From: a virus
IMG/VR virus record: IMGVR_UViG_3300044675_005263
Span: 1 to 64,000 of that record
DNA length: 64,000 nucleotides
Strand: one strand, 5' to 3'
Below are positions 31,646 through 52,670 of the stretch, piece after piece. Numbering within the stretch: the stretch's first letter is position 1; every line of letters starts with the position of its first letter. A program made the translations under genes and the position numbers. The notes under the pieces were generated by a model. That model saw only the letters and a program-made list of their open reading frames with translations. It was not told the origin of the DNA and ran no database searches.

Positions 31646-31674
31646 TTGTAAAGTGCAGGGAGATAGGATACCTT
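31646..31674 (+). promoter_or_regulatory. Conserved-spacer promoter
   Basis: TTGTAA, 17-nt spacer AGTGCAGGGAGATAGGA, TACCTT. Member of the family whose spacer contains TGCAGGAAG or GTCAGGAAG. Drives the 86-aa gene at 31722. Confidence 0.65.
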
Positions 31675-31721
31675 TATCTCATTGGGGCAGGGAGTTCCAA
31701 TACAGACAAAGGGAGAAACAA

Positions 31722-31982
31722 ATGTCATATGGAGTTTCAATTACAGTAAAGTATTCAGAGACAACATCAACAGGAACAATCACAAAAGAAACGAACTACC
31801 ATTTCCACGTTGATACCGCATCAAATGCAAGCGATCTAATTACTAAGACCGCATCAAATGCAAAGGGTATGAACGCAAAGGTGGAGAAGGTAGAGGTTAC
31901 CGAAGAGAACCCATACTCTTACGAAAACCCATACCGCAATCTTACAGACGGCGAAATCTTGGAACTTCTCCTAACCAAGTAA
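31722..31982 (+). CDS. Small unknown protein, 86 aa
   Basis: ATG 31722 chosen because AAGGGAGAAACAA precedes it; an upstream in-frame ATG at 31620 overlaps the promoter. Starts MSYGVSITVKYSETTSTG, predicted beta-strands then a helical acidic C-terminus. Followed by an intrinsic terminator, so a monocistronic cassette. Function unknown. Confidence 0.7.
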   Translation: MSYGVSITVKYSETTSTGTITKETNYHFHVDTASNASDLITKTASNAKGMNAKVEKVEVTEENPYSYENPYRNLTDGEILELLLTK

Positions 31983-31996
31983 CCGCAAAGAACTAA

Positions 31997-32030
31997 CCCC
32001 CCTGACTTCCCTCGGGGGGGTTTTTCTTTT
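31997..32030 (+). terminator. Intrinsic terminator
   Basis: CCCCCC/GGGGGG hairpin (loop TGACTTCCCTC region) followed by TTTTTCTTTT, 15 nt after the 86-aa gene. Confidence 0.85.
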
Positions 32031-32064
32031 CCCGACACGCCGTAAAAGCTTTTTTCTTTCAATT

Positions 32065-32093
32065 TTACAAAAGTCAGGAAGATAGGCTACACT
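32065..32093 (+). promoter_or_regulatory. Conserved-spacer promoter
   Basis: TTACAA, 17-nt spacer AAGTCAGGAAGATAGGC, TACACT; upstream of the 125-aa gene at 32146. Confidence 0.7.
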
Positions 32094-32145
32094 TTATCTA
32101 AGCGGTTAATCACAGGGAGAACACCGCACAACAAGGGAGAACAAA

Positions 32146-32523
32146 ATGAACAACAACGACACAATGACAATCACAAAGACTTTCACAGTCGGTCAACTAT
32201 GGGAGGCAGTTTTCGGTTCTGACGGTTCAGGAATTGTCTACTGGTCTCCAAAGATCCGCAAGCAAAATGGACACGGCATTGACCTATGGAAGACAGTTGA
32301 CGGAGAACTTCAACCAAACCCACAAGATTTCAAGATCTGGGATATCGAAGAAAACAAGTGGCACTTTATAACCGTAGAAGACCTCCGCACAGGTTTTGAG
32401 AAGGCTTTAATCGCAAACCAAACCCACTGCGGTGGATACCCTCTAGACCTTGAAGATTATGACGCTTGCTTCTGCGATATGGTTATCCAATACGCAGTCT
32501 TCGGAAAACTGGTTTATGGCTAA
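32146..32523 (+). CDS. Small unknown protein, 125 aa
   Basis: ATG 32146 preceded by AAGGGAGAACAAA. Sequence MNNNDTMTITKTFTVGQLWE, with many aromatic residues and an acidic C-terminal half (DLEDYDACFCDMVIQ). Own promoter and terminator. No family recognised. Confidence 0.75.
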   Translation: MNNNDTMTITKTFTVGQLWEAVFGSDGSGIVYWSPKIRKQNGHGIDLWKTVDGELQPNPQDFKIWDIEENKWHFITVEDLRTGFEKALIANQTHCGGYPLDLEDYDACFCDMVIQYAVFGKLVYG

Positions 32524-32539
32524 GAAACTCCCGCAAGAA

Positions 32540-32567
32540 ACCCCCTGAGAAATCGGGGGGTTTTTTG
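32540..32567 (+). terminator. Intrinsic terminator
   Basis: CCCCCTGAGAAATCGGGGGG hairpin followed by TTTTTT. Confidence 0.85.
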
Positions 32568-32579
32568 TTGGGCGTGTCG

Positions 32580-32608
32580 TTGATTAAGTCAGGAAGAAGG
32601 TTTATAGT
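32580..32608 (+). promoter_or_regulatory. Conserved-spacer promoter
   Basis: TTGATT, 17-nt spacer AAGTCAGGAAGAAGGTT, TATAGT; drives the two micro-genes at 32654 and 32748. Confidence 0.7.
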
Positions 32609-32653
32609 TTTCCTAGTGGTTCAGGGAGAACCGCAGGAAGAAAGGGAAAGCAA

Positions 32654-32743
32654 ATGTTAATAGCCTCAATAGCAATAGTTGCAGGGATTATAGGAACTGC
32701 AATCGCTTTAATTCAAGACCCAATCGAACAAGAAAGGAAATAG
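32654..32743 (+). CDS. Membrane microprotein, 29 aa
   Basis: ATG 32654 after AAAGGGAAAGCAA. Starts MLIASIAIVAGIIGTAIALI, a single transmembrane helix with a charged C-terminus. Its own RBS and promoter support expression. Function unknown. Confidence 0.6.
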   Translation: MLIASIAIVAGIIGTAIALIQDPIEQERK

Positions 32744-32747
32744 GGAA

Positions 32748-32888
32748 ATGGCAAAAACTGTAGAACTAGTCAACAGCAAGACAGTCGAACAAATAACAAA
32801 ACAACTTCTAGAGGCACTGTCAGAAGGCAACACCGCAAGGGCTGAACTTCTAGAAATGTGGCTAACAGAATTAAAGAACTCTAAGTAA
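32748..32888 (+). CDS. Small helical protein, 46 aa
   Basis: ATG 32748, 4 nt after the previous stop (RBS GAAAGGAAATAGGG). Starts MAKTVELVNSKTVEQITKQL; amphipathic helices with no cysteines. Function unknown. Confidence 0.6.
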   Translation: MAKTVELVNSKTVEQITKQLLEALSEGNTARAELLEMWLTELKNSK

Positions 32889-32903
32889 ATCCGTCAAACA
32901 AAA

Positions 32904-32936
32904 AACCCCTCAACCGTAAAGGTTGGGGGGTTCTTT
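32904..32936. terminator. Bidirectional terminator between convergent genes
   Basis: AACCCCTCAACC and GGTTGGGGGGTT arms with A-rich 5' and T-rich 3' flanks; it serves the plus-strand micro-genes and the minus-strand gene ending at 32947. Confidence 0.8.
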
Positions 32937-32946
32937 GCTTTCAGAA

Positions 32947-33222
32947 TTAAGAAGATTTTCTTCCTTTATCAACCAAAGCAAATGCTTCGTCAATTTCTGC
33001 CGTAGTTAGTTTTCCGTCTGCAAGGTAGGCACGAGCCAAAGCCTCTAAGACAGTAGCAACACCAAGAGCACCCGCAAGGGTTACTGCTTGAGTTAATTCA
33101 ATACCAACAATAGAACCAGCGCCGATCACTGATAATCCTGATGCAGCGAAAACCGCAATGACTCTAGAGACAATCATTTTAGTTTTCTCGAACTGCTTAT
33201 TCTTTATTTCCTTTACTGCCAT
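32947..33222 (-). CDS. Putative holin / small membrane protein
   Basis: Start at ATG 33222 (RBS AGAAAGGACA), 91 aa. A basic N-terminus (MAVKEIKNKQFEKTKMIVS), two hydrophobic segments and a charged C-terminus with DGKLTTAEIDEAF. Size and topology fit a class II holin, and the neighbours upstream in the same direction are a peptidoglycan-binding-like protein and a transglycosylase-like protein. The DGKLTTAEID stretch resembles an EF-hand-like loop. Holin role is inference. Confidence 0.5.
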   Translation of the reverse strand: MAVKEIKNKQFEKTKMIVSRVIAVFAASGLSVIGAGSIVGIELTQAVTLAGALGVATVLEALARAYLADGKLTTAEIDEAFALVDKGRKSS

Positions 33223-33331
33223 AAGTGCTGTGTCCTTTCTATGTTCACACTTAGGCGCTAGAAATACCAACGCCCAGCCTCTCAATTTTACTTGAGCGAC
33301 TGGGCGCTGATCAGAATTGGAGAGGTAGCTA

Positions 33332-33754
33332 CTACGCTCCAACTCCTACATCTAAACCATCAAAAAGATATGCAAGGACTGCTTCATCAAAGCAACCGCA
33401 CTCCTCTAAGCCTACTGACTTGCGATAAGCGTTGATAGCCTCAACACTTCCTGCTCCTAGTCTGCCAAACTTATCTCTAACAACTGCGTCAAAACCTAGA
33501 TCTTTTAGACGCAACTGAACAGTCTGAACAGAAGAAGAGTTGCCAGCCATAGCGTTAACCTTAAGAGCAGAAAGAGAAATAATTGTGTTTGCTTCTCTCT
33601 TTACCTTTGGTGCTGACTTGCTTTCCTTCTTTACTTCTTTGACCTCTACAACTTTAGGCTCTTCTGCGAGCGCAGGTGTTGCCTTAGGCTCTTCCGTAGG
33701 TGGTTCCATAGGCTGAAACATTGAACCTACTAGGGGTCTGAGTTCTTGGCTCAT
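33332..33754 (-). CDS. Peptidoglycan-binding-like protein
   Basis: 140 aa. The N-terminal half is Pro/Glu/Lys-rich (EEPKVVEVKEVKKESKSA), a flexible linker. The C-terminal half, SSVQTVQLRLKDLGFDAVVR and FGRLGAGSVEAINAYRKSV, matches the pattern of PG_binding_1 domains (V-x-x-L-Q-x-x-L-x-x-L-G-F, then G-x-x-x-x-x-A-V-x-x-F). It probably binds cell wall. It lies 5 nt after the transglycosylase-like gene. Confidence 0.6.
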   Translation of the reverse strand: MSQELRPLVGSMFQPMEPPTEEPKATPALAEEPKVVEVKEVKKESKSAPKVKREANTIISLSALKVNAMAGNSSSVQTVQLRLKDLGFDAVVRDKFGRLGAGSVEAINAYRKSVGLEECGCFDEAVLAYLFDGLDVGVGA

Positions 33755-33759
33755 TTTTC

Positions 33760-34335
33760 CTACTTTCCTTCGGGGAACTTCTTAAGCCACATTTGAAACC
33801 TAGGTTCCGCCGTAGCACTATTATAGTCGCTCTTTGATATCTTCCAAGCGGAGAAATCTTCTCCACCCTTGCTCATATGGTGAGCAATCTGAGCATTAAC
33901 TACTGGATTGAAAAGGTCTGAGTTTGAGTCAAGCGAGAATTTAATTCTGCGCTCCGGGCCTAGGTCGCCAATCATATTGATCTGATAGACACCATAGGAA
34001 CTATCGCCTGTCTTTGCGTTGCCATTGAAGGCAAGCGGGCGACCATTAGACTCCTTCTTTGCAATAGCCCACGCAATGCGAAGAGCCTTGCCTTCAAAGC
34101 CTACGGCAATGAGAAGGTCTCTCAACTCTGTATCTGTAAGAGAGGTCTTGTTCTCAAAATCTGAAAGCTTCGGTTTTACTTCTACTACTATTGGTTCTTG
34201 AATTACAACTGGTTTAACAGGTTCCATTTGCTCTGGACTCTGCGCTACTGCTATTGCGGTAGATGCTAGAACTACTGTCAAAGACATTAGCGCTATCAAC
34301 TCTTGCAAATGGCGTTGCTTAAGAGATTGCCTCAT
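33760..34335 (-). CDS. Lytic transglycosylase / lysozyme-like protein with N-terminal signal
   Basis: 191 aa. A basic start then a hydrophobic segment (IALMSLTVVLASTAIAVA) form a signal peptide or anchor, followed by a Val/Pro linker. The C-terminal domain has AWAIAKKESNGRPLAFNG and TGDSSYGVYQINMIG, the SLT/lysozyme-like pattern with the catalytic Glu in KKESNG. It likely cleaves glycan strands during lysis or entry. A GGGACAGGG-type purine stretch precedes the start region. Confidence 0.75.
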   Translation of the reverse strand: MRQSLKQRHLQELIALMSLTVVLASTAIAVAQSPEQMEPVKPVVIQEPIVVEVKPKLSDFENKTSLTDTELRDLLIAVGFEGKALRIAWAIAKKESNGRPLAFNGNAKTGDSSYGVYQINMIGDLGPERRIKFSLDSNSDLFNPVVNAQIAHHMSKGGEDFSAWKISKSDYNSATAEPRFQMWLKKFPEGK

Positions 34336-34598
34336 TTGGGTTCCTTCGTTTGGGGACAGGGACAGGTTGCTCGACTTGCCAACCTTGCTAACCCACTTGG
34401 GGGTGAGCCTTACTTCAAGTGTCTAATCCGTAGATCTCCTTACGTCACTTGTCTTGCTTGAATAAACTATACCGCAATGTCAGGTTAATCCGACACTGAT
34501 TTAGCCTACCAAACTAGGATTTATTTCACACCGTGAGCGTAAAAGCCCTGCTGATAGCCTTAAATCTATAATAAAACCTAAATGCTCCATAAAAAATG
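34336..34598 (-). promoter_or_regulatory. Upstream region of the transglycosylase-like gene
   Basis: 263 nt without a gene. A minus-strand TATAGT box occurs near 34463-34468, within a segment where a reversed AATGTCAGG lies nearby (34474-34482). No clear -35. The rest shows nothing recognisable. Confidence 0.3.
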
Positions 34599-34626
34599 CA
34601 GGGAGGTGAGTTTTTCCCCTCCCCGC
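34599..34626 (-). terminator. Intrinsic terminator
   Basis: Minus strand GCGGGGAGGG and CCTCCCTGC arms followed by ATTTTTTA; ends the small-gene operon whose last gene stops at 34638. Confidence 0.75.
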
Positions 34627-34637
34627 ACCTTAAAGCT

Positions 34638-34793
34638 TTAGCGTTTCTCTCTAGCGGATAGAGTTGCTGATGCTACTGAGGTTAGACCAAAGGCGAGCGC
34701 CATTGAGTCATTACCTTGATAACCTGCCACGAGGCAAGCCACTCCAAGGGCTAGGGAGATTACTGCTGTCCAAACTATGTTCTTTGTATTCAT
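34638..34793 (-). CDS. Small membrane protein, 51 aa
   Basis: ATG 34793 overlaps the previous stop as ATGA. Starts MNTKNIVWTAVISLALGVAC; two hydrophobic helices separated by GYQGNDS and a short basic tail. Function unknown. Confidence 0.65.
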   Translation of the reverse strand: MNTKNIVWTAVISLALGVACLVAGYQGNDSMALAFGLTSVASATLSAREKR

Positions 34794-34984
34794 ATGCTCA
34801 CTCTCTTATCAGGTCTAGTTCTGCCTACCAAACGAGCAGAGGGGTCTCTAGCGACCACTCCAGCCCCGTAGACAGCCTTTCTAGCGGTTCGGTAGGCAAC
34901 GCCTAGTTCTTTGGCTACTGCCTCTAGAGATAGCCCACTTTCGTAAAGGCGGACTGCCTCTTCTGTAATCTTTTCGATCTTCAT
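34790..34984 (-). CDS. Small HTH DNA-binding protein
   Basis: 64 aa. The segment AVRLYESGLSLEAVAKELGV followed by AYRTARKAVYGAG is a classical helix-turn-helix of resolvase/Hin or small-terminase type, with a basic C-terminus (RTRPDKRVSI). Start coupled to the upstream gene through TAATG. A local regulator is possible. Confidence 0.65.
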   Translation of the reverse strand: MKIEKITEEAVRLYESGLSLEAVAKELGVAYRTARKAVYGAGVVARDPSARLVGRTRPDKRVSI

Positions 34985-35160
34985 TACTTAGTTACTCTCT
35001 TTTCTTTTAGTAGTTCGGCTTGGAGAAATCTAATCTTGTCGTTCTTTTGGTTGATGACTCGGTGCAACTGACCCTGCGCTCTAATACCAACAACCATAAC
35101 AAAGCAAGAGCCAGCGAGCGCAATTACTATTCCAATCAAGGTTCCCGTATCTAAATACAT
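34984..35160 (-). CDS. Single-pass membrane protein with coiled coil, 58 aa
   Basis: Start at ATG 35160 because GGGGGTAAAA directly precedes it. One N-terminal transmembrane helix (GTLIGIVIALAGSCFVMVVG) then a charged coiled coil (NQKNDKIRFLQAELLKEKR). Topology resembles spanin or holin-accessory proteins, but no function can be fixed. Confidence 0.6.
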   Translation of the reverse strand: MYLDTGTLIGIVIALAGSCFVMVVGIRAQGQLHRVINQKNDKIRFLQAELLKEKRVTK

Positions 35161-35162
35161 TT

Positions 35163-35354
35163 TTACCCCCTCTCTTTTATAGTGTAAGCAAAAGTAAAGA
35201 CAGAGAAACAACCAACCCAATCGCCCCACCTTTTGCCAAAGTGAAAGGTTCTCCAGTTAGTAGCCACAATGTTAAGCCAAAGGGTATAGCGACCAACCCC
35301 AATAGTTAGATGAGCTAAGTAAGTCGGTAGCCCAAAGCCAAGATCAAACATCAT
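35163..35354 (-). CDS. Small aromatic-rich protein, 63 aa
   Basis: Start ATG 35354 with GGGGTAAAAA immediately upstream. Starts MMFDLGFGLPTYLAHLTIGV; rich in Trp, Phe and Gly, probably membrane-associated. Tightly spaced (2 nt) before the next gene. Unknown. Confidence 0.55.
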   Translation of the reverse strand: MMFDLGFGLPTYLAHLTIGVGRYTLWLNIVATNWRTFHFGKRWGDWVGCFSVFTFAYTIKERG

Positions 35355-35357
35355 TTT

Positions 35358-35591
35358 TTACCCCTCGTATTCGGCTCTTATTAGTTGTAGTTCCTCGTCA
35401 ATGCGCTGTTGTTCTTCGGCACGAGCGTAATACTCGATAGCAATTTTGTCGTAAGCGTTTTTTATTAGTTCTAGTTCATAACCTGTCGGCTTCCACTTAC
35501 GAACTTTAGGGTGTCGAAATGTTGCTAGCATAACCGCATAGAGTTCGTCATCACTTAGCAGAATTGGTTGAGGTTTTCTAAGTCTAGGCAT
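35358..35591 (-). CDS. Small unknown protein, 77 aa
   Basis: ATG 35591 after GGGGGAGAGCAA. Starts MPRLRKPQPILLSDDELYAV, basic N-terminus then helical (EEQQRIDEELQLIRAEYEG). Operon member; unknown function. Confidence 0.6.
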   Translation of the reverse strand: MPRLRKPQPILLSDDELYAVMLATFRHPKVRKWKPTGYELELIKNAYDKIAIEYYARAEEQQRIDEELQLIRAEYEG

Positions 35592-35603
35592 TTGCTCTCC
35601 CCC

Positions 35604-35759
35604 TTATGGATACAACAGGTCTAGGCAGAATTGGTTCATCTGCTCTGTTGGAACTTTGCACATTTCAGGTGTTGTAGCGTCCATAGCCCAAGCGAACAGA
35701 GCCAACAAGATAACTGCAACTGCGATACGGCGTCTAATAAACTTTGCTTCTGTTTTCAT
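35604..35759 (-). CDS. Small membrane protein, 51 aa
   Basis: Start at ATG 35759 (RBS GCAGGGAGAAG). MKTEAKFIRRRIAVAVILLA: basic residues, one transmembrane helix, then a short external tail with two Cys. Driven by the promoter at 35800-35828. Unknown. Confidence 0.6.
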   Translation of the reverse strand: MKTEAKFIRRRIAVAVILLALFAWAMDATTPEMCKVPTEQMNQFCLDLLYP

Positions 35760-35799
35760 CTTCTCCCTGCTTCCTTTGGCTCCCTTAGCCAATAAGTAA

Positions 35800-35828
35800 A
35801 TACTAACAGACCTTCCTGCACTTTGCAA
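35800..35828 (-). promoter_or_regulatory. Conserved-spacer promoter
   Basis: Minus strand TTGCAA, 17-nt spacer AGTGCAGGAAGGTCTGT, TAGTAT. One of the best family members. Confidence 0.75.
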
Positions 35829-35837
35829 CTTCTCTAA

Positions 35838-36053
35838 CTATTCGGCGTGTTGCTTCTGCTTCTCGATAGTTAGACGAGCCATAGCCAAGAGTTCCTCGAA
35901 ACTTCTAGGGTCTTGATTGAAACACTCCCACGATTGAGCAAGAGTTATTGAGTGAGGCTTTGGCTTTGCTACGGCACTACTTCTATTTCCACCCTTGCGA
36001 CCCTTTAGACTTTTTACAGTTCCCAAGATTGCGCTATCAGGTAATCCCCACAT
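35838..36053 (-). CDS. Small basic protein, 71 aa
   Basis: ATG 36053 after AGGGAAAGGAAAACAAA. Starts MWGLPDSAILGTVKSLKGRK, a glycine/lysine-rich N-terminal part suggesting nucleic-acid contact, then a helical C-terminus. Unknown. Confidence 0.6.
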   Translation of the reverse strand: MWGLPDSAILGTVKSLKGRKGGNRSSAVAKPKPHSITLAQSWECFNQDPRSFEELLAMARLTIEKQKQHAE

Positions 36054-36085
36054 TTTGTTTTCCTTTCCCTATTCCCTATAAATAA

Positions 36086-36114
36086 ATAATAACAGACCTT
36101 CCTGCATTTTGCAA
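36086..36114 (-). promoter_or_regulatory. Conserved-spacer promoter
   Basis: Minus strand TTGCAA, 17-nt spacer AATGCAGGAAGGTCTGT, TATTAT; upstream of the 71-aa gene. Confidence 0.75.
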
Positions 36115-36136
36115 GTATCGGCATAAAATAAAAGTG

Positions 36137-36166
36137 GAGAGGAGCGCCCTTGCGAGCGCCCCTCTC
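36137..36166 (-). terminator. Intrinsic terminator
   Basis: GAGAGG-GCGC / GCGC-CCTCTC stem; on the minus strand it is followed by ACTTTTATTTTA. Ends the 79-aa gene. Confidence 0.75.
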
Positions 36167-36172
36167 AGAGCG

Positions 36173-36412
36173 TTATGCGAGTATGTCGCACTCGGCTGAC
36201 TGTCGGTCTTTCAAGTATTCAGAGCGTTCCTGCTCTGTCTTGAATTCCCAACCAATCATTGCGACATCTGTGTGTCGCTTCTTTTTTGAGTCTTTAGTGT
36301 GTTTTTGAAATTCATCGTTAGCGTAGAGCTGTTGCTCGTGCCACTCGGTGAAATACCAACTACCGACCCAACCACAAACACAAATGTGTTTGACGATCTT
36401 TCCGTATGAAAT
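36173..36412 (-). CDS. Small unknown protein with apparent ATT start, 79 aa
   Basis: The only plausible start is ATT at 36412-36410: GGAGGTAAAAAA sits exactly where other genes here have it before ATG, and an in-frame TAG (36427-36425) closes the frame just upstream. Read with initiator Met it begins MSYGKIVKHICVCGWVGSWY and continues without internal Met until about residue 54. One CxC motif. It has its own promoter and terminator. If the ATT is a sequencing error, ATG would be normal. Confidence 0.6.
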   Translation of the reverse strand: MSYGKIVKHICVCGWVGSWYFTEWHEQQLYANDEFQKHTKDSKKKRHTDVAMIGWEFKTEQERSEYLKDRQSAECDILA

Positions 36413-36458
36413 TTTTTTACCTCCCTACTGTCGGCTCCCTTTCCGACCTAGTAAAACA

Positions 36459-36487
36459 ATCTTACCACACCTTCCTGCATTTTCCTA
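36459..36487 (-). promoter_or_regulatory. Conserved-spacer promoter
   Basis: Minus strand TAGGAA, 17-nt spacer containing ATGCAGGAAGGTGTGG, TAAGAT; upstream of the ATT-start gene. Back-to-back with the plus-strand promoter at 36512. Confidence 0.65.
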
Positions 36488-36511
36488 ATCACGGCGTGTC
36501 GTAGGCTCAAT

Positions 36512-36540
36512 TAGGTTTTGTCAGGAAGGTGTGCTATAAT
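36512..36540 (+). promoter_or_regulatory. Conserved-spacer promoter
   Basis: Weak -35 (TAGGTT), 17-nt spacer TTGTCAGGAAGGTGTGC, perfect TATAAT; drives the gene at 36582. Confidence 0.7.
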
Positions 36541-36581
36541 AGGATTACCGAACAAGGGAAACGGTAGAAGGGAGAAAACAA

Positions 36582-36773
36582 ATGCCAAAGTTTGATGTTG
36601 AAGTTTCAAGCAAAGGTTGGGGCGACCCTAGATTTATTCTTATAGATGTCGCAAACGCTATCCGCAAGGCTGGCGCAACAACTGAAGAACAAGACCAGTG
36701 GTTTAACGAGGCTACCTCGGGCGACTCTGAAAATGTTCTTCGCACCGCAATGAAGTGGGTGAAAGTCGCCTAA
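36582..36773 (+). CDS. Small unknown protein, 63 aa
   Basis: ATG 36582 after AAGGGAGAAAACAA. Starts MPKFDVEVSSKGWGDPRFIL; a compact alpha/beta protein. Own promoter. Unknown. Confidence 0.65.
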   Translation: MPKFDVEVSSKGWGDPRFILIDVANAIRKAGATTEEQDQWFNEATSGDSENVLRTAMKWVKVA

Positions 36774-36836
36774 CTGATTGAGGGCAAGGACTTCCCCCCT
36801 TGTCCTCTCTCGGCGACACGCCAAGAAAAGTAAATG

Positions 36837-36865
36837 CAAGAAATGTCAGGAAGGTATGTTAGACT
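36837..36865 (+). promoter_or_regulatory. Conserved-spacer promoter
   Basis: 17-nt spacer ATGTCAGGAAGGTATGT followed by TAGACT; -35 weak (CAAGAA). Drives 36898-37202. Confidence 0.6.
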
Positions 36866-36897
36866 TACTACAACAAGCCAAACAAGGGAGAAAGAAA

Positions 36898-37005
36898 ATG
36901 GCTAAGAAAGTTCAGATGATTTTTATTCATTGTTGGAAGTGTGGTCGTAGGTTTCAGATTGCAGAGCGTGATTACAACCACGGCGCAGTTTGTGAGGATT
37001 GCTAA
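36898..37005 (+). CDS. Zinc-ribbon microprotein, 35 aa
   Basis: ATG 36898 preceded by AAGGGAGAAAGAAA. Starts MAKKVQMIFIHCWKCGRRFQ and ends GAVCEDC: two CxxC knuckles about 20 residues apart. Its TAA overlaps the next ATG (TAATG). Confidence 0.65.
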   Translation: MAKKVQMIFIHCWKCGRRFQIAERDYNHGAVCEDC

Positions 37006-37202
37006 TGATTAGGTGGAGCAAAGCCGAAGTGGATAATCGTTTGGGGATTATGTCCTCGAACGGAAAATACTTTATAAGCGCAAGAGGCTGGCTTGCTGGT
37101 GGTGTCCTAAATTGGTTCCTCTATGATTTTAGTGATAACACTTACCAAGACGGATTTCGCTATCAAAGAGATGCGAAAGCATTTGCAGAGGAATTAGGTT
37201 AG
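37005..37202 (+). CDS. Small unknown protein, 65 aa
   Basis: Start set at ATG 37005 through TAATG coupling. Starts MIRWSKAEVDNRLGIMSSNG; aromatic-rich alpha/beta protein. Its end overlaps the convergent proteasome-like gene by 4 nt. Unknown. Confidence 0.6.
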   Translation: MIRWSKAEVDNRLGIMSSNGKYFISARGWLAGGVLNWFLYDFSDNTYQDGFRYQRDAKAFAEELG

Positions 37203-37768
37203 TCTCGGTATTGAGTCAAGAGGTAAAAAGGTTCCGCAGTCTTGTTATCAAACTTAGAAGAAACGGCGAGCGCAGTTTTGATCGTAGCTCTTGCAGTTGT
37301 GAGAGTTCTATTCTTGCCCTCTGATAAAGCATTGAGCGCACCCAAAGCAAAGTCCGCACCTGAACCTATCGCATAGAGACCAGTCGTATCGTGGCACCAA
37401 GAATAATCTTCGCCTATCTCATAGATAGTTCCATTTATTAAAACCATAATCTGACTTTCTTGGTCGCCATCTTTTGAGTAAGAGGCTTCTTCAAAACATT
37501 TTTTTAGTTCGGGGATAAACACCGCAGTCATAAACTTATCTAGTTTTACTCCTAGAGTTGATCCTGTGCAAGGCGGTGCCTTAAAAACGTGAGTCATTAA
37601 GTTGATAGCTCGAACATCTCCCGCAACACCTAAAACATAATTACCACTCTTAAAAACTTTACCTGAGTCCTTCGGCAAGACATAAGTTCTGCCATCTTCT
37701 TCGGTAACTCTTGAGTCATAACCAACAACAGCCCAGCCATCACCTTGAACGCTCGCTATTGTTGTCAT
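37199..37768 (-). CDS. Proteasome beta / HslV-like Ntn hydrolase
   Basis: 189 aa starting MTTIASVQGDGWAVVGYDSR. After Met removal Thr2 would be the N-terminal nucleophile, as in HslV (TTI-V-x-V). Further matches: GYDSRVT in the strand position of the conserved Asp17-like residue, a basic GKVFKSGNYVLGVAGD (Lys33-like and G-x-A-G), and GLYAIGSGADFALGALNAL, the helix that packs on the active site. Actinobacteria have their own 20S proteasome; this protein may form a small self-compartment or act on other amide substrates. ATG follows GGGGTAAAAACT. Confidence 0.7.
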   Translation of the reverse strand: MTTIASVQGDGWAVVGYDSRVTEEDGRTYVLPKDSGKVFKSGNYVLGVAGDVRAINLMTHVFKAPPCTGSTLGVKLDKFMTAVFIPELKKCFEEASYSKDGDQESQIMVLINGTIYEIGEDYSWCHDTTGLYAIGSGADFALGALNALSEGKNRTLTTARATIKTALAVSSKFDNKTAEPFYLLTQYRD

Positions 37769-37780
37769 AGTTTTTACCCC

Positions 37781-38023: not shown

Positions 38024-38076
38024 ACCTCTAAAGATACCTTGATCGGTGAACCCTGATTTTTACCCCCATACAATAG

Positions 38077-38107: not shown

Positions 38108-38115
38108 TCTACAAG

Positions 38116-38492: not shown

Positions 38493-38521
38493 ATTGTAGT
38501 CGATTATCCTGACATTTGCAA
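38493..38521 (-). promoter_or_regulatory. Conserved-spacer promoter (variant)
   Basis: Minus strand TTGCAA, 17-nt spacer ATGTCAGGATAATCGAC, TACAAT. Strong boxes; drives the ArdA-like gene. Confidence 0.7.
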
Positions 38522-38933: not shown

Positions 38934-38962
38934 AGTGTAACACATCTTCCTGACTTTTTCTT
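38934..38962 (-). promoter_or_regulatory. Conserved-spacer promoter
   Basis: Minus strand AAGAAA, 17-nt spacer AAGTCAGGAAGATGTGT, TACACT; upstream of the DUF2958 gene. Confidence 0.65.
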
Positions 38963-40164: not shown

Positions 40165-40193
40165 ATCCTATCATACCTTCCTGCATTTCGTTA
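40165..40193 (-). promoter_or_regulatory. Conserved-spacer promoter
   Basis: Minus strand TAACGA, 17-nt spacer AATGCAGGAAGGTATGA, TAGGAT; the consensus form of the family. Confidence 0.75.
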
Positions 40194-40826: not shown

Positions 40827-40855
40827 AGTTTATCATACCTTCCTGCATTTTCATA
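40827..40855 (-). promoter_or_regulatory. Conserved-spacer promoter
   Basis: Minus strand TATGAA, 17-nt spacer AATGCAGGAAGGTATGA, TAAACT; drives the HNH gene. Confidence 0.75.
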
Positions 40856-41309: not shown

Positions 41310-41338
41310 ATCCTATCATACCTTCCTGCAAAAACAAA
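41310..41338 (-). promoter_or_regulatory. Conserved-spacer promoter
   Basis: Minus strand TTTGTT, 17-nt spacer TTTGCAGGAAGGTATGA, TAGGAT; abuts the terminator of the preceding cassette. Confidence 0.7.
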
Positions 41339-41952: not shown

Positions 41953-41981
41953 ATCCTATCATACCTTTCTGCAAATAGGGC
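41953..41981 (-). promoter_or_regulatory. Conserved-spacer promoter
   Basis: Minus strand spacer TTTGCAGAAAGGTATGA then TAGGAT; one substitution in the core. Drives the 127-aa gene. A CCCGGAAAAAACAAT element (41995-42010) lies just upstream. Confidence 0.65.
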
Positions 41982-42416: not shown

Positions 42417-42445
42417 AGCCTATCATACCTCTCTGCACTTTCATA
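42417..42445 (-). promoter_or_regulatory. Conserved-spacer promoter
   Basis: Minus strand TATGAA, 17-nt spacer AGTGCAGAGAGGTATGA, TAGGCT. Confidence 0.7.
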
Positions 42446-43290: not shown

Positions 43291-43319
43291 AGCCTATCAT
43301 ACCTTCCTTCAATTTTCGA
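43291..43319 (-). promoter_or_regulatory. Conserved-spacer promoter
   Basis: Minus strand TCGAAA, 17-nt spacer ATTGAAGGAAGGTATGA, TAGGCT; overlaps the end of the upstream 54-aa gene. Confidence 0.6.
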
Positions 43320-44114: not shown

Positions 44115-44143
44115 AGTTTATCATACCTTTTGATTATTCTGTA
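44115..44143 (-). promoter_or_regulatory. Partial conserved-spacer promoter
   Basis: Minus strand AAAAGGTATGA then TAAACT; the GCAGG part is missing, as the end of the 98-aa gene overlaps it. Confidence 0.5.
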
Positions 44144-45935: not shown

Positions 45936-45964
45936 AGCCTATCATACCTTTCTGCTAATCCAAA
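45936..45964 (-). promoter_or_regulatory. Conserved-spacer promoter
   Basis: Minus strand spacer ending AGCAGAAAGGTATGA then TAGGCT; heads the 44453-45906 cassette. Confidence 0.65.
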
Positions 45965-46876: not shown

Positions 46877-46905
46877 ACCCTATCATACCTATCCAAATAA
46901 TCATA
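46877..46905 (-). promoter_or_regulatory. Conserved-spacer promoter (weak)
   Basis: Minus strand TTTGGATAGGTATGA then TAGGGT. Upstream, 46983-47001 carries a plus-oriented CCCGGAAGTAATAATTC element and otherwise nothing recognisable. Confidence 0.5.
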
Positions 46906-47140: not shown

Positions 47141-48919
47141 TCAAGCGACCTGCCTTTGCCCTGCGGTTGAGAGGACTCGCTCTGCGGTTCGCCCAATAGC
47201 CAACGCCGACTCTGTGGGGCTGGTAATCCCTGCCACCACCTGAGCATTTACGCCCTTGCAGAGATACTCTGCCTGTGCGCCTGAGTCGCCAATCGGAAGC
47301 CATAGAACTGCTACGCCATTTCGGGTGCAAGCCTTTAGCCAACGCTGAGCCAATTCGCTTTCCTCAGGTGTGTAATGTCCGTCCGACACAACCACGAGTA
47401 AGCGAGCGCCAGTTCCATTGAGAAGGTTGAGTGAGCCGTCCAATGAACGAAATGCTCGGTCGAACTTTTCAGTTCCGTCAGGTGCAGAATAAACTGAAAC
47501 TTCTTTTAGTCGCTGACCTGCTTTGAGTGTTGGGAAAACATCTGAGCCGTAATAAACCATAGCGCATTGACCCTGAACTCTACGAACTGCCTCAGACATA
47601 ATCCATGCAGTAGAAGCCATTGGTTGCATAGCACTAGACATTGACCCTGAAATATCAACCATTACTCCAACTGTGAGTGTTGGTTCGTCTGTGTGCTTGC
47701 GAACTGTTTTGCGAAAAGCCTCTGCTTGCTTATGAACTCCACGAGAAGCAAGTGCCTTGCTCTGAATAATTGCACGAGTGCGTAATCTCCCCGGAGGTGT
47801 AATGCTATTTACTTCTGTAATGTCCTTCTCACGATACTTTGCCTTTTCCAATGCACGAGCAATCTTTACTGTCGCACTTCTTTCAGAAGCAATAGGCGCT
47901 CTTTTCTCAATCAACTTAGAGGCAGTTCGGAATTCTCCGGGACCTGAACTCTTTGAGAATACTTGACGAGAGATTTCCTCATTTTTCTTTTGCTCTTTAG
48001 AACTCATTGACTTCTTTTCAGCAGACTCTTTCATAGCCTCTGAACTCTGTTGCTCTGATAAATCATCTGCAACATTTTCAGAAACTTCTGAGTCCATGTC
48101 TGCCATGAGTTCGCTCATCATCTTTGCGAAGGCTTCCATTTCCTCAGGAGTAGGTTCTCCCTTTTCTTTCTTTGCTTCTCTTACCAACTCAGCCCACTCA
48201 ACTGCTAATGGGTAGCAAGGAGAAATATCATGGTGGCGAGTGTGGCTTTGGAACTTCTCAATAATCGCAACCAACTTCGCAACTAGGTCAGCACCTAGAA
48301 AATCATTTACTTGCTTGATTAAATCTGTCGCTTCTGTTTCTAGTAATGACCCTGCAACGATACGAGCATGAGCCAATCCCACCAACTGGCAAGCAGACCC
48401 AACGCTAGAATTCTCTGCAAAAGTTTCTTTCGCTTCGTCAATAATTAAACCCATAGCACTTGCTCGTAGAAAGTTCTTTGCTCTAGGCATAGCAATAATT
48501 CCCTGTGCCTCAATGCGACCTTCCTCTAATAACATCAAAGCCTGAAACTCATCTTGCTTTAGGTCTTTAATTCCCTGAGCCATATCCCAAGTAGAAAACT
48601 TTGCGTGGAAGGCTTCGTGCATAATCGCACCAATCGCTTTTGGAAACTCGAATTGGTTGCGTGGCTTTGTAAGGTCGTCAATCAGATTAGGTGTAATACC
48701 TTCTCCAAAAGCCTCAATCGTATTTACCTGCACCTCAGCAAGTGAAGGGATAAAGCAAGCAGGTGCGCCTTCACCTTTGTCTGTGCCAATGCAAGCAACA
48801 ATGTCGCTTCGCTCAGACCACTCATTAACGAGCAATCCAATTTCGTATCCAACTGGTAGCCACTCAGTAGGTGTCTTGACCCCTGAGCCTTTTGTTTCTA
48901 GTGGCTTAATGTGTGCCAT
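47141..48919 (-). CDS. VWA-domain protein with metallopeptidase-like N-terminus
   Basis: 592 aa. Residues about 95-110 contain AIMHEAFHAKFS, an HExxH zincin motif. The middle (260-350) is charged and helical. The C-terminal VWA domain starts near 415 with VGVMVDISGSMS, a full MIDAS signature (D-x-S-x-S), followed by VVSDGHYTPEE and ends near the C-terminus. The arrangement resembles DUF2201-type metallopeptidase-VWA proteins that work with MoxR AAA+ ATPases. Its ATPase partner is the next gene upstream. Likely acts as a metal-dependent adaptor or protease in a remodelling complex. Confidence 0.75.
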   Translation of the reverse strand: MAHIKPLETKGSGVKTPTEWLPVGYEIGLLVNEWSERSDIVACIGTDKGEGAPACFIPSLAEVQVNTIEAFGEGITPNLIDDLTKPRNQFEFPKAIGAIMHEAFHAKFSTWDMAQGIKDLKQDEFQALMLLEEGRIEAQGIIAMPRAKNFLRASAMGLIIDEAKETFAENSSVGSACQLVGLAHARIVAGSLLETEATDLIKQVNDFLGADLVAKLVAIIEKFQSHTRHHDISPCYPLAVEWAELVREAKKEKGEPTPEEMEAFAKMMSELMADMDSEVSENVADDLSEQQSSEAMKESAEKKSMSSKEQKKNEEISRQVFSKSSGPGEFRTASKLIEKRAPIASERSATVKIARALEKAKYREKDITEVNSITPPGRLRTRAIIQSKALASRGVHKQAEAFRKTVRKHTDEPTLTVGVMVDISGSMSSAMQPMASTAWIMSEAVRRVQGQCAMVYYGSDVFPTLKAGQRLKEVSVYSAPDGTEKFDRAFRSLDGSLNLLNGTGARLLVVVSDGHYTPEESELAQRWLKACTRNGVAVLWLPIGDSGAQAEYLCKGVNAQVVAGITSPTESALAIGRTAERVLSTAGQRQVA

Positions 48920-48967
48920 GTCTTTTGTCCTTTTCCCTTTTAGTTTTGTATCGTGTGTCTAACGATA

Positions 48968-48996
48968 GGTCTATCATACATTTTTATTTATCTATA
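48968..48996 (-). promoter_or_regulatory. Weak conserved-spacer promoter
   Basis: Minus strand AAAATGTATGA then TAGACC; only the 3' half of the family core is present. Confidence 0.35.
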
Positions 48997-49083
48997 TGCA
49001 ACTTTAGGTCTATCTGTGTCTAGGTCGGAAGGTGTGAATTTTGATCGTAGGACTCAAAGCTTCCCCTCGCTTTTACCCCCTTT

Positions 49084-49123
49084 GGTTATGGTGAGGACTC
49101 CACCCATGAAGCCCTCACCCAAC
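49084..49123 (-). terminator. Terminator-like hairpin
   Basis: Minus strand GGTTGGGTGAGGG and CCTCACCATAACC arms, 24 nt after the MoxR gene; weak U-run. Confidence 0.55.
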
Positions 49124-49146
49124 CAAGTCAGCAATCTAATAGGGAG

Positions 49147-50205
49147 TTAGATTTTCGCTGGCTTATGCTCAGCGCCATAGGCACGAGCAATAACATCAAC
49201 CACCACATCTCTATCTAACTCAGGTGCGCTCGCAATCAAGTTAGCGATAGCAAACTCTGTGCCAAATAGTTCGGCAGTAGAACGGAAAGCAAGCAACTCT
49301 CTCATCTGAGGCGACCAAGAAATCTCGGCGCTATCGCCCTGAGTTCTCTTAAACAAGTTCTGAGCAACGCTCACCATTGTCTTTGGAACTCCCAACTTCT
49401 CAGCCAGTTTCCAATCTGTGGTGAGTTCTGCCTGAATTGCAAAACGAGATAGCAACGCTTCTGAAAGTCGAACTCCCGGAGCGTTAGGGTTGGTTGCACC
49501 CACTACGAAAAAGTTAGGGTGGATTTTGATAGTTCCTCTATCAGGGTTCATTGGAATTGTGAATTCCTTTCGTCCGTCCATAGCACCATAAGCAAATGAA
49601 AGAACTTTAGGGTCAATCAAACCAATTTCGTCAATCAAAAGTGGTTCGCCATTTTCTACTGCCTTTGTAAATTCTCCGTCAATCCACTCAAAGTTTCCAC
49701 TAGGTGTCTGAACGAAACTTCCCAAGAAATCTGAAACTTCTGTATCTCCACTTCCAATAATTGTGTGGAGAGTTTCATCAGCAAATGAAGCCTCAATGAG
49801 TGCAGTTTTTCCAGTTCCCGGAGCGCCATAGAGAAGGACGAACTGTGGGTCGCCAACTCCTTCTGAATTGTATTTTGAGGTGGCTTCTCTCGCTTTGCGG
49901 AGAACTGCTATGTCCTTATGAATTCCCCATTGGCGAGTGAAATACTTTTGTCCATTAGGACGAACATAAAATTCGTCAGCCTCGAAAGACTCGACATTTA
50001 CTTCACTAGGACTCATAGCACCAACTCTCTCTTTGGCTTTTCTGTCTGCGCCACTTGCTCGCTCAACGAAACGACCATTAGGTAATACTTTTGCATTTAG
50101 TCGGAGTGAAGTTTCCTCATGCACATTTTGCACTATGCACTCTGAAACGATATTCCAAAAGTCGCCCCCAATAGAAGCCAAACTCTCTTTGATAATTGTA
50201 TCCAT
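49147..50205 (-). CDS. MoxR/CbbQ-type AAA+ ATPase
   Basis: 352 aa. Walker A GAPGTGKTALIEA near residue 127, then GSGDTEVSDFLGSFVQ (the loop of MoxR/GvpN/CbbQ ATPases), Walker B PLLIDEIGL near 195, sensor 1 FFVVGATNPNAPG and an arginine-finger region ALLSRFAIQAEL. MoxR ATPases pair with VWA proteins for chaperone-like remodelling or metal insertion. Together with the VWA/HExxH gene downstream it forms a two-gene unit. ATG 50205 follows GGGGGCAATAAAA. Confidence 0.85.
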   Translation of the reverse strand: MDTIIKESLASIGGDFWNIVSECIVQNVHEETSLRLNAKVLPNGRFVERASGADRKAKERVGAMSPSEVNVESFEADEFYVRPNGQKYFTRQWGIHKDIAVLRKAREATSKYNSEGVGDPQFVLLYGAPGTGKTALIEASFADETLHTIIGSGDTEVSDFLGSFVQTPSGNFEWIDGEFTKAVENGEPLLIDEIGLIDPKVLSFAYGAMDGRKEFTIPMNPDRGTIKIHPNFFVVGATNPNAPGVRLSEALLSRFAIQAELTTDWKLAEKLGVPKTMVSVAQNLFKRTQGDSAEISWSPQMRELLAFRSTAELFGTEFAIANLIASAPELDRDVVVDVIARAYGAEHKPAKI

Positions 50206-50673: not shown

Positions 50674-50775
50674 GGGTGTCCTTTCGTCGTTTCGCACCCC
50701 CAAAGTGCGATAAGGCAACTCTAGCAGAAAACATCATAGAGGCAAAATTAGCCTAAGCGTGTCGTAAAAATAGTT

Positions 50776-50821
50776 CTGCCCCAACGCTAAAACGACGAAT
50801 AAAAGCGTGGGGCAGAATCTT
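50776..50821 (-). terminator. Long hairpin terminator
   Basis: ATTCTGCCCCACGCT and AGCGTTGGGGCAGAA arms (15 bp with one bulge) followed on the minus strand by ACTATTTTTACG. Ends the 95-aa gene. Confidence 0.7.
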
Positions 50822-50833
50822 GTTTTGATCGTA

Positions 50834-51121
50834 TTAGGAAATAGAGATTTCCTTTACGATTTCAGGGTCAGGGGTAAAAACTGGCTTCTCCTTATGAAGC
50901 TTTAGTCCAAATTTCTTGAACTCTTTATTAAAGGCTTTATCCTTCTGTGGTCGTCCTGCTTCTACCCACTCGGAAATGACTCGAGCTGCTAGATACCTTT
51001 CCTCGTCCTTTGCTTCCATGACCATAAGGAAGTCCTCCCGGATCCACGCACCAGTTCCAATCACCGTTATCTGATTGGCGTTACCGTAGTTCCCGTCGAT
51101 ATCGAAATAATGTAATCTCAT
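50834..51121 (-). CDS. Unknown protein, 95 aa
   Basis: ATG 51121 after AGAGAGGTAAAAA. Starts MRLHYFDIDGNYGNANQITV; WIREDFLMVMEAKDEERYLA suggests a small nucleic-acid or metabolic domain, but no family is recognised. Followed by a strong hairpin. Confidence 0.65.
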   Translation of the reverse strand: MRLHYFDIDGNYGNANQITVIGTGAWIREDFLMVMEAKDEERYLAARVISEWVEAGRPQKDKAFNKEFKKFGLKLHKEKPVFTPDPEIVKEISIS

Positions 51122-51197
51122 TTTTTACCTCTCTTGTATTCCCACTCCGTTAGGGTAGCACGCCCAGACATTTCCATCTGGGCACGCCGACCTCGAA

Positions 51198-51431
51198 TTA
51201 TTTTTTCCGGGCTTTCTTCAGCATCTTGGATATTTTCTTGAGTTCGTCCTCGCCAAGTTCCACGCCGATTTCGTATGCAACATCTTTGGCGTATCCGTTA
51301 TCCATGGACTCTTCCAACTCCGCTTTATAGATTGGGTCAAGCCCGTTCATGTCCTCGTCGTCAAAGATATAGGCGGTGTCCGATAGGGCGAACCAAGTAT
51401 CCGTTCCAGTATGGCAAACATATAGGGTCAT
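51198..51431 (-). CDS. Small unknown protein, 77 aa
   Basis: ATG 51431 overlaps the end of the Api92-like gene by 4 nt. Starts MTLYVCHTGTDTWFALSDTA; C-terminus basic (KKISKMLKKARKK). Its stop codon lies inside a CCCGGAAAAAATAATTCG element (51196-51211). Confidence 0.6.
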   Translation of the reverse strand: MTLYVCHTGTDTWFALSDTAYIFDDEDMNGLDPIYKAELEESMDNGYAKDVAYEIGVELGEDELKKISKMLKKARKK

Positions 51432-52033
51432 GCCGATACCTCCGCTTCCTCTTCCTCGTCCTCTTTATAGTTAGGGCAATCCGAGTAGTAAGAACATTCC
51501 TCGGGGTCTTCAACGCATGGACATTCCTCGCCCATCTTCTCCCAGCAAGCGTGGTCAATCTCGCCACCCTCTTCGCTGAACTCCTCGCCGTTCTGGTAAA
51601 TAACAATCCCCCAGAAGCACATGCCAGTCTCATTGTATTTGTGTTCAATACAAAGAGTAGGGAAGATTTCGGCAAGCCGAGCAATCGCTATATCTGGTGG
51701 AGACCAAGCCGAATCAAAAGAGTAGGAAAGTGAATCAGTAGATTCGCTGAAATAAACTGAGTCCTCGCCACAAACATCCCACTTAGTTCCCCAAGAGTTG
51801 ATGTGGTTGTGATACCAGTCCTCGTCTCCTTGAGACCTAAAAGCCTCTCCAATTCTTGGCTCTGCATCTTTTGTTGGAGTAGTGATGTTGTAAAGAGAAA
51901 AGATTGGATTTGCAATCTCTTCAACAGTTCCTTCAATGGTTCGCTTGATTGGGCGACCAACAAACTCCTTAAGATTTTTTAGAGTCTCTTGGTCCCCGGA
52001 AATGTTTATTGTATTTGAGCACCAGTTAGGCAT
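51428..52033 (-). CDS. Api92-like phage protein
   Basis: 201 aa. MPNWCSNTINISGDQETLKN, then DWYHNHINSWGTKWDVCGED, SYSFDSAWSPPDIAIARLAE, FPTLCIEHKYNETGMCFWG: the order M-P-N-W-C-x-N, W-G-T-K-W-D, T/S-A-W-S-P-P is the signature of Api92/DUF1281-type proteins with a ferredoxin-like fold. A Cys-rich acidic tail (CPCVEDPEECSYYSDCP) is added. Function unknown in all relatives. Confidence 0.8.
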   Translation of the reverse strand: MPNWCSNTINISGDQETLKNLKEFVGRPIKRTIEGTVEEIANPIFSLYNITTPTKDAEPRIGEAFRSQGDEDWYHNHINSWGTKWDVCGEDSVYFSESTDSLSYSFDSAWSPPDIAIARLAEIFPTLCIEHKYNETGMCFWGIVIYQNGEEFSEEGGEIDHACWEKMGEECPCVEDPEECSYYSDCPNYKEDEEEEAEVSA

Positions 52034-52274
52034 TGTTCTCCTCGTGTTCTATTACAGATTGAGTTATCTCTAACCCAAGAGCCTGAATCTCTTTTCCCAA
52101 ATCGTCAATCGCTTCATCTATGTTTTGACGAACATCAAAGTAATCCCATGGATTTTCGTCAGTCTTTGGTGAGCGAATGTATTGCAAATCAACTGCACAT
52201 GAGACAGCAATGTTGATTACCTTGATTGCGTTCTCATCACCAGCCAAATACTTTTCTGCTAGTTCTTGATACAT
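52026..52274 (-). CDS. Small unknown protein, 82 aa
   Basis: ATG 52274 preceded by the leader AAATGACGAAAGGGAAAAC. Starts MYQELAEKYLAGDENAIKVI; helical, acidic. Overlaps the Api92-like gene start by 8 nt. Unknown. Confidence 0.6.
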   Translation of the reverse strand: MYQELAEKYLAGDENAIKVINIAVSCAVDLQYIRSPKTDENPWDYFDVRQNIDEAIDDLGKEIQALGLEITQSVIEHEENNA

Positions 52275-52322
52275 GTTTTCCCTTTCGTCATTTGTAGTTT
52301 TATTATAGCGATTTACAATCGC

Positions 52323-52541
52323 TTATTCAACTTCCACCACTCGGAAGTTTTCATCTTCCAAGATAGAAACGCTGAAGTCCAAGTCAATCCCTCTATTGCG
52401 CTCCCCAACTTCAGGGAGGTCGTTGATGTTGATTTCATCATCCATTACTTGCTTTAGAAGAGCCTTTGCCTCTTCATCATTCTTTGCCTCAAACCAAACT
52501 TGGTTCATTGAGATTTCGTTGAATCTAAACGAGTATTGCAT
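52323..52541 (-). CDS. Small acidic protein, 72 aa
   Basis: ATG 52541 preceded by AAATGACGAAAGGGAAAAA. Starts MQYSFRFNEISMNQVWFEAK then NDEEAKALLKQVMDDEIN: strand-helix pattern similar to the 66-aa protein at 45278. Unknown. Confidence 0.6.
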   Translation of the reverse strand: MQYSFRFNEISMNQVWFEAKNDEEAKALLKQVMDDEININDLPEVGERNRGIDLDFSVSILEDENFRVVEVE

Positions 52542-52641
52542 TTTTTCCCTTTCGTCATTTGTGGTGTTGGGGAACGAGTTTTTGTTCCTAGGACTTCAAC
52601 CCTATTCAGCATCAGCAAATAGAATCTGCCCCAACAAGCCA

Positions 52642-52670
52642 AACTTATCATACCTTTCTAGATAAGTGCA
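52642..52670 (-). promoter_or_regulatory. Conserved-spacer promoter
   Basis: Minus strand spacer ending CTAGAAAGGTATGA then TAAGTT; partial core. Confidence 0.5.

Follow-up and report, generated by a model that had tools for sequence, protein, structure and literature searches.

In the cluster A actinophages (L5, TipsytheTRex), a repressor of ~183 aa, which joins a helix-turn-helix (HTH) to a second DNA-binding (stoperator) domain (PMC9283540), reads many short asymmetric sites that are oriented with transcription, and the stoperators among them, unlike the promoter operators, stand free in intergenic DNA across the genome. In phage T4, the MotA/AsiA system relies on a small early protein and a phage-specific box present in many copies upstream of the host −10; the MotA box takes the place of the −35, at 12 ± 1 bp from the −10 (PMC2988021). 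The GcrA/CcrM system of alphaproteobacteria places an HTH protein at σ70 promoters and requires methylated GANTC, while λ Cro is a small early HTH protein whose operon carries its own sites. Repeated intergenic motifs that are lineage-specific and have no known reader include the 18-bp motif of Microbacterium phage cluster EC, found 21–30 bp before start codons, and the palindromic motifs of clusters EG and O, the latter represented by the 17-bp repeats of Corndog; the SAS/ESAS motif of cluster K lies at the ribosome binding site. Here we describe a conserved word (the box) within the −35/−10 spacer of early promoters of an uncultured phage, IMG/VR record IMGVR_UViG_3300044675_005263 (G000, 105,346 bp), and its proposed reader, a 64-aa HTH protein termed P0002. 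The window is the 64,000-nt stretch of G000 studied here (positions 1 to 64,000), and coordinates refer to it unless stated otherwise.

G000 is an actinobacterial phage, and it belongs to an abundant group of phages that are uncultured and whose hosts are probably freshwater actinobacteria; blast returned no near DNA relative among named phages, and a search of GTDB genomes with NrdJ indicated no host. Structural genes occupy 1–31 kb on the minus strand, small early genes 31–58 kb, and nrdJ, two WhiB genes and replication genes follow from 60 kb on.

A block TGCAGGAAGGTATGA, or its variant GTCAGGAAG, is found at 19 early promoters between 31.65 and 52.66 kb, with the general pattern [TG][GT]CAGGAAGGTATGA followed by TANNNT; the box begins at a constant 15 nt ahead of the −10. 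Two further promoters of the series share only the extended −10. The sites are as follows, with scores from a position weight matrix (PWM) in bits.

31654..31674, plus strand: box promoter, TGCAGGGAGATAGGA then TACCTT; 24.4 bits; start codon 31722, 47 nt past the −10
32073..32093, plus strand: box promoter, GTCAGGAAGATAGGC then TACACT; 29.4 bits; start codon 32146
32588..32608, plus strand: box promoter, GTCAGGAAGAAGGTT then TATAGT; 15.2 bits; start codon 32654
35800..35820, minus strand: box promoter, TGCAGGAAGGTCTGT then TAGTAT, the nearest one upstream of the HTH gene; 31.2 bits; start codon 35759
36086..36106, minus strand: box promoter, TGCAGGAAGGTCTGT then TATTAT; 30.6 bits; start codon 36053
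36459..36479, minus strand: box promoter, TGCAGGAAGGTGTGG then TAAGAT, divergent with 36520; 32.5 bits; no clear start codon nearby
36520..36540, plus strand: box promoter, GTCAGGAAGGTGTGC then TATAAT; 25.7 bits; start codon 36582
36845..36865, plus strand: box promoter, GTCAGGAAGGTATGT then TAGACT; 33.9 bits; start codon 36898
38493..38513, minus strand: partial box promoter, GTCAGGATAATCGAC then TACAAT, from sequence; start codon 38451
38934..38954, minus strand: box promoter, GTCAGGAAGATGTGT then TACACT; 30.4 bits; start codon 38892
40165..40185, minus strand: box promoter, TGCAGGAAGGTATGA then TAGGAT; 31.3 bits; start codon 40136
40827..40847, minus strand: box promoter, TGCAGGAAGGTATGA then TAAACT; 36.4 bits; start codon 40780
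41310..41330, minus strand: box promoter, TGCAGGAAGGTATGA then TAGGAT; 34.3 bits; start codon 41200
41953..41973, minus strand: box promoter, TGCAGAAAGGTATGA then TAGGAT; 32.3 bits; start codon 41917
42417..42437, minus strand: box promoter, TGCAGAGAGGTATGA then TAGGCT; 33.2 bits; start codon 42379
43291..43311, minus strand: box promoter, TGAAGGAAGGTATGA then TAGGCT; 34.3 bits; start codon 43251
45936..45956, minus strand: box promoter, AGCAGAAAGGTATGA then TAGGCT; 27.3 bits; start codon 45906
46877..46897, minus strand: degenerate box, TTTGGATAGGTATGA then TAGGGT; 21.9 bits, mainly from the extended −10; start codon 46849
52642..52662, minus strand: degenerate box, TCTAGAAAGGTATGA then TAAGTT; 21.8 bits; start codon 52541
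44115..44135, minus strand: promoter of this series that has the extended −10 but no box core, AATCAAAAGGTATGA then TAAACT, from sequence; start codon 44084
48968..48988, minus strand: extended −10 promoter lacking the box core, AATAAAAATGTATGA then TAGACC, from sequence; start codon 48919, of a VWA protein

Column information is highest at G−23, A−20, G−19, G−18, T−17, G−14 and T−12/A−11/T−7, and a TA step is present at the expected transcription start position. At its 3′ side the conserved spacer consists of TATG, a normal extended −10, which leaves TGCAGGAAGG, from −27 to −18, as the portion not explained in this way. The box is asymmetric and contains no palindrome. At 20 of the 21 candidate sites, a start codon with a Shine-Dalgarno (SD) sequence follows 27–109 nt downstream on the same strand. 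All 16 promoters that the original prediction had listed as sharing the spacer block are real σ70-like promoters carrying it. Its weaker copies, thought to extend to 52642, are a mixed group: those at 45956 and 52662 retain much of the box, 46897 retains little, and 44135 and 48988 have the extended −10 only, while site 38513 keeps just GTCAGGA. The −35 said to be shared is nearly absent in G000, where conservation is limited to T−35 and agreement with TTGACA is 2–4 of 6 positions at most sites.

The whole record was scanned at a threshold of 16 bits with a 28-column matrix from a fixed curated site set, preferred because an iterated PWM drifted to false sites, and ten order-2 shuffles served as control. 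Seventeen matches exceeded 16 bits, all within 31,654–52,662, against none in the shuffles (maximum 15.7 bits); elsewhere in the genome the block is absent. When each site was left out in turn and only the ten box columns were scored, 16 of the 19 sites fell within the top 0.03% of genomic 10-mers. Searched for without the −10, the core is found at chance frequency (19 matches with ≤1 mismatch vs 14–19 in shuffles), and 13 of these 19 have TANNNT exactly 15 nt further on. The copies are thus promoter-locked and sense-oriented rather than equally frequent inside genes and in both orientations. L5-like stoperators, which had been suggested, are not borne out: free-standing cores are at chance, and the functional-looking copies are all −10-locked, except for a terminator hairpin downstream of the HTH gene.

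In ten orthologous promoters of G000 and its relative G044, identity is 91% in the box (−27 to −17), 82% in the −10 hexamer, 68% at −16 to −13 and 57–60% in the flanks, the last figure being lowered also by indels. The box outconserves the −10 and is therefore kept for its own sake. It is common to G001 and G002 (NrdJ 90%), G043/G046/G047 and G044, where it follows TTGACA or TTGCAA, and is retained across phages of 41–50% GC. Among 136 unique promoters, the gap between −35 and box is 2–4 bp and the spacer is mostly 17–18 bp where the −35 is good (−35 statistics were computed without the loci fetched by a TTGACA pattern, which are biased). In relatives, the box starts 13–15 bp ahead of the −10, with spacer length kept, and ends 3–5 nt before it. 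Across these 136 promoters, the −35 and the extended −10 show no significant trade-off (p = 0.29).

Actinomycetia phage DSL-LC01, a named relative assembled from a Dishui Lake metagenome and with Actinomycetia as predicted host (PMC10611076), has no G000-type boxes in the stretch scanned but carries its own series at about two dozen early promoters (GATTCTAAAGATGT, TATAAT and WGAATCA in succession, with TTCTAAAGAAG as the box), so the spacer word is lineage-specific. Inverted GATTC..GAATC arms, which are GANTC sites, flank the −10 in this series (L114, 20–44 kb). In G015 (L111, 20000–39999), 23 of 104 upstream regions contain the 9-mer CGCAAGGGG (1.0 expected), in hairpins such as ATCGCAAGGGGCGAT directly before the start codon, and GGTGTGTCGAT stands immediately ahead of TTGACA or TTGCAT. 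In L205, L206 and L208, most TTGACA promoters have another, poorly defined spacer word (~TATGATA or CATAGAGG), and the HTH operon retains TGCAGGAAGG.

The candidate reader is encoded downstream of box promoters and is followed by a hairpin built from the box itself.

34790..34984, minus strand: P0002, 64-aa HTH protein, proposed box reader; HTH_23 match (E = 4e-5), three-helix HTH in the AF2 model, co-occurrence and co-variation with the box
34597..34630, no strand assigned: terminator-like hairpin with box sequence as its stem (TGCAGGGAGGTG..CCTCCCCGCA), ~160 nt past the HTH gene; conserved in both G044 and G001

P0002 (MKIEKITEEAVRLYESGLSLEAVAKELGVAYRTARKAVYGAGVVARDPSARLVGRTRPDKRVSI) is unannotated and was first spotted by a weak Sigma70_r4_2 match. 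Its HTH_23 match is slightly under the Pfam cut-off, and a match to GcrA (E = 0.07) reaches 13.9 bits against a cut-off of 26.9. AlphaFold (AF2) predicts a tri-helical HTH (helices 2–15, 20–27 and 31–40; pLDDT, the model's per-residue confidence, 85–89 in the HTH) with a flexible C-terminal arm, which is conserved and arginine-rich; the recognition helix reads GVAYRTARKA. Among solved folds, Foldseek places it nearest to the DNA-binding domain of DeoR and the HTH of IstA (TM ~0.6), with E-values that are not significant. Orthologs in G044, G001 and G043 are 70–89% identical, and the DSL-LC01 homolog is 42–44% identical with an altered recognition helix, GITYGKARQLI. The terminator made of inverted box copies after the HTH operon is also found in G001 (75798–75830), other loci (among L145, L146, L176, L188, L189, L191 and L204) have similar elements after the HTH gene, and one other clade has two back-to-back boxes there.

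A scan of 2.9 million viral contigs with the DNA pattern alone (TTGACANNNTGCAGGAAGGT) gave 70 stretches and 36 records >20 kb, and the HTH protein is encoded in 30 of these 36 (E 1e-33 to 1e-37); in three of the remaining six the pattern is followed by no −10, and these seem to be matches by chance. Of 38 NrdJ relatives taken for comparison, 9 carry a gene of the HTH family, mostly of other classes (Fisher p 2e-7 for the contrast), and in a portal-based sample of 30 phages all four with the GVAYRTARKA helix have at least four box matches, as against 1 of the 26 others with at least two (Fisher p 2e-4), both p-values ignoring kinship and being indicative only. Helix and spacer word also pair by class: GVAYRTARKA with [TG][GT]CAGGAARG; GVAYRTARKAILMSG (L211) with TTTGTCAGnGG; SVTYRTARKAVQLSG, also given as SVTYRTARKAVQ (L214, L217), with GTCAGTCC; GVSYRTARKAINLNG (L349) with TGCAGGGAAG; DVCYRTARKAVWAEG (L303, L306, L317) with TGCAGGTTA and GTCAGGT; TYGKARQL or TYAQAKKL (DSL-LC01, L224, L231) with TTCTAAAGAWGT, the CTAAAG class; SYSQTRKL (L227) with AACTAAGGATTG; and TYGKARKL (L218) with TACCTG. 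Portal identity to G000 is 67–80% for almost all phages of these differing classes; G043 (portal 73%, HTH 76%) shares the box, and DSL-LC01 (portal 72%, HTH 44%) does not. Since portals are similarly close across the classes, backbone distance alone does not explain the co-variation.

Furthermore, nearly every locus whose sequence extends far enough upstream has a box promoter ahead of the HTH gene and on its strand, at a distance of 50–72 nt in L151–L153 and L174 (50 nt in L151–L153). Box-poor phages still have one in this position, at 430 bp in L204, 552 bp in L205/L208, 540 bp in L207, 271 bp in L303/L306/L317 and 937 bp in L361. No other single observation hints as strongly that the box belongs to the HTH protein as the presence of a box upstream of the HTH gene even where boxes are few.

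Together, these observations, drawn from hundreds of related phages, lead us to favour, with somewhat better than even confidence, the reading that the boxes are operators of P0002 and that P0002 would be a phage autoregulator acting as a repressor of early transcription rather than as an activator. Physical binding of P0002 to the box is probable on the comparative sequence data; given binding, repression would be the likelier outcome. Host RNA polymerase with the housekeeping σ factor would recognise the early promoters by the −10, the extended −10 and, in relatives, TTGACA. The recognition helix of P0002 would bind the asymmetric box, TGCAGGAAGG or GTCAGGAAGG, perhaps with help from the arginine-rich arm in the A/T-rich DNA just upstream, and a protein bound in the spacer would lie between the σ4 and σ2 contacts and exclude the polymerase. 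Much as Cro does, P0002 would thereby shut off early genes and negatively regulate its own, acting on a regulon made up of scattered early cassettes of one gene each. Repression is favoured because the site is placed to block the σ contacts, because the regulator, itself encoded early, has sites of its own, and because most relatives combine the box with TTGACA and a 17–18 bp spacer, giving strong basal promoters that would need no activator. Of the original prediction that the spacer must bind something, what stands is that the spacer would serve an early-gene regulon as a site for protein binding, most likely as the operator of a phage regulator for which the comparative data name a candidate. 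L5-like stoperators and a phage σ factor drop out, G000 having no Sigma70_r2 (PF04542) match; a phage-modified polymerase, also raised there, may act at the box promoters. No report of the box or of the 64-aa protein was found in the open-access papers searched.

Several points weigh against P0002 as the repressor. The degenerate −35 of G000 fits an activator model too, and a double-HTH protein (30626–31162) and the two WhiB proteins are possible alternative readers. Three of the pattern-matching records that lack the HTH protein do have box and −10, though they are possibly fragments. G015 (portal 71%, NrdJ 83%) and its close relative L305 have patchy GTCAG spacers and no HTH homolog in the available sequence; as the sister phages L303/L306/L317 have the gene, recent loss in G015/L305 is possible. 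Finally, box and HTH class are both inherited by lineage, and shared ancestry accounts for part of the co-variation and inflates all the associations.

The alternative that survives best, though rather unlikely, is that P0002 is an activator or σ co-factor that would bind the spacer beside σ and stimulate the polymerase at a delayed-early promoter class, as GcrA and MotA do. The fixed phasing to the core promoter, the weak −35 in G000 and the weak Pfam likeness to the GcrA HTH fit such a role, as do the CTAAAG-type boxes of DSL-LC01 and L224, whose promoters have a TATAAT −10 and no evident −35; given that missing −35, a co-activator role is possible for the CTAAAG class more than for the others. 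However, most relatives combine the box with consensus TTGACA, a 17–18 bp spacer and a good −10, and the distance from box to −10 varies (13–15 bp) while spacer length is constant. A wider version, in which the family of tiny single-domain phage HTH proteins would be σA co-factors reading the −35/−10 spacer with polymerase bound, through lineage-matched helix/word pairs, seems to us comparably doubtful.

A different phage protein as reader of the box is less probable again. The 178-aa double-HTH protein, encoded at the head of the late operon, and the WhiB-family proteins (62568–62882, 62866–63168) are present in all fuller phages examined, including G015, and WhiB proteins bind σA region 4 (PMC10245118). 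Yet the C-terminal recognition helix of the double-HTH protein, GVTYRAMARR, is identical in DSL-LC01 and G000 despite their different boxes, and WhiB is found in phages with and without the box; WhiB7 moreover touches DNA upstream of the −35, not the spacer. We regard as quite improbable a preference of a host factor or the host holoenzyme for this spacer, with the box merely marking very strong early promoters. The TATG part is indeed an ordinary extended −10, and the premise that spacers are normally unconserved, though mostly right, has to allow for T4 early promoters, which also have consensus beyond −35 and −10 (PMC2988021); against this, phages of the same family, with presumably related hosts, have quite different spacer words that track HTH class, and box presence tracks one phage gene. 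Recent duplication of promoter cassettes, with likeness by descent and no selection on the spacer, would suit the terminator-promoter-leader cassette that makes up each early gene but is barely credible for a box that exceeds the −10 in ortholog conservation while its flanks diverge and that persists across the GC range given above.

Other features accompany the box promoters. At about six of them, CGACACGCC (32035, 32577, 35850, 36499, 36816 and 52674) is found on either strand 11–38 bp upstream of the box, with no genome-wide enrichment. The leaders after box promoters (31690–43260; e.g., 32100–32140, 36541–36581 and 40790–40826) carry short hairpins whose stems vary and whose loop, AAGGGA, is SD-like, such as ACCG-AACAAGGGAAA-CGGT, CTCAC-TAAGG-GAGTGAG and TTTGGCT-AAGGGAG-CCAAA, and a second, true SD then follows; these separate hairpins resemble the SAS/ESAS of cluster K and EF phages. 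The early gene at 38116–38451 (minus strand), which follows box promoter 38513, has weak similarity to the antirestriction protein ArdA (E = 5e-5). An HslV/proteasome-like protein is encoded at 37199–37768 (minus strand), and a related second copy lies in the same phage at L009 8793–9326 (minus strand; record 72793–73326). At 47141–50205 (minus strand), a VWA/CoxE-like protein adjoins an AAA_5 ATPase, and the pair is retained in all fuller relatives. Near the portal gene, an open reading frame of 4247 aa (14004–26747, minus strand; ~12.7 kb) is conserved only in part among relatives.

The box and P0002 provide a named candidate protein and a DNA word for early-gene control in a phage group whose regulators are largely unknown, and the lineage-matched helix/word pairs represent a natural experiment on how a regulator and its roughly twenty sites change together. 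A laboratory actinobacterium would suffice for testing the predicted pair, with no need of the phage, and orthogonal regulator–box pairs would be of use as promoter switches. Should the co-factor reading be true, hundreds of uncultured actinobacterial phages would run private promoter codes on the host polymerase.

In its working, the box would come closest to the operators within the L5 operator/stoperator system, in a Cro-like role. Shared with cluster A are the actinophage setting, the many short asymmetric sites oriented with transcription and the small monomeric HTH reader (inferred here); however, the box system lacks two defining stoperator features. Stoperators are free-standing, whereas the box is −10-locked and elsewhere at chance; and P0002, at 64 aa, has one HTH and lacks the second domain of the cluster A repressor. 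As to genes of a temperate phage, no tyrosine integrase (PF00589) was found in the seven phages searched, and there is one resolvase-type serine recombinase of 204 aa; the G000 record may be incomplete. As with MotA, a phage-specific box in many copies lies upstream of a host −10 and is assigned a small early reader, but the box starts 13–15 bp before the −10 and, in relatives, 2–4 bp after TTGACA, which it does not replace. P0002 resembles GcrA as an HTH protein at σ70 promoters, whereas the G000 box contains no GANTC and the Pfam match to GcrA is under the cut-off. Cro is likened by role, as a small early HTH protein with its own sites and a probable part in early shut-off, and differs in that the sites here are asymmetric and single, at about 19 promoters. 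Unlike the cluster K motif, the box lies upstream of the −10; unlike the EC, EG and O motifs, it lies inside a promoter spacer and has a candidate reader. The repeat motifs of actinophage clusters EC, EG, EI and O (PMC7302621, PMC4351075) may conceal similar systems.

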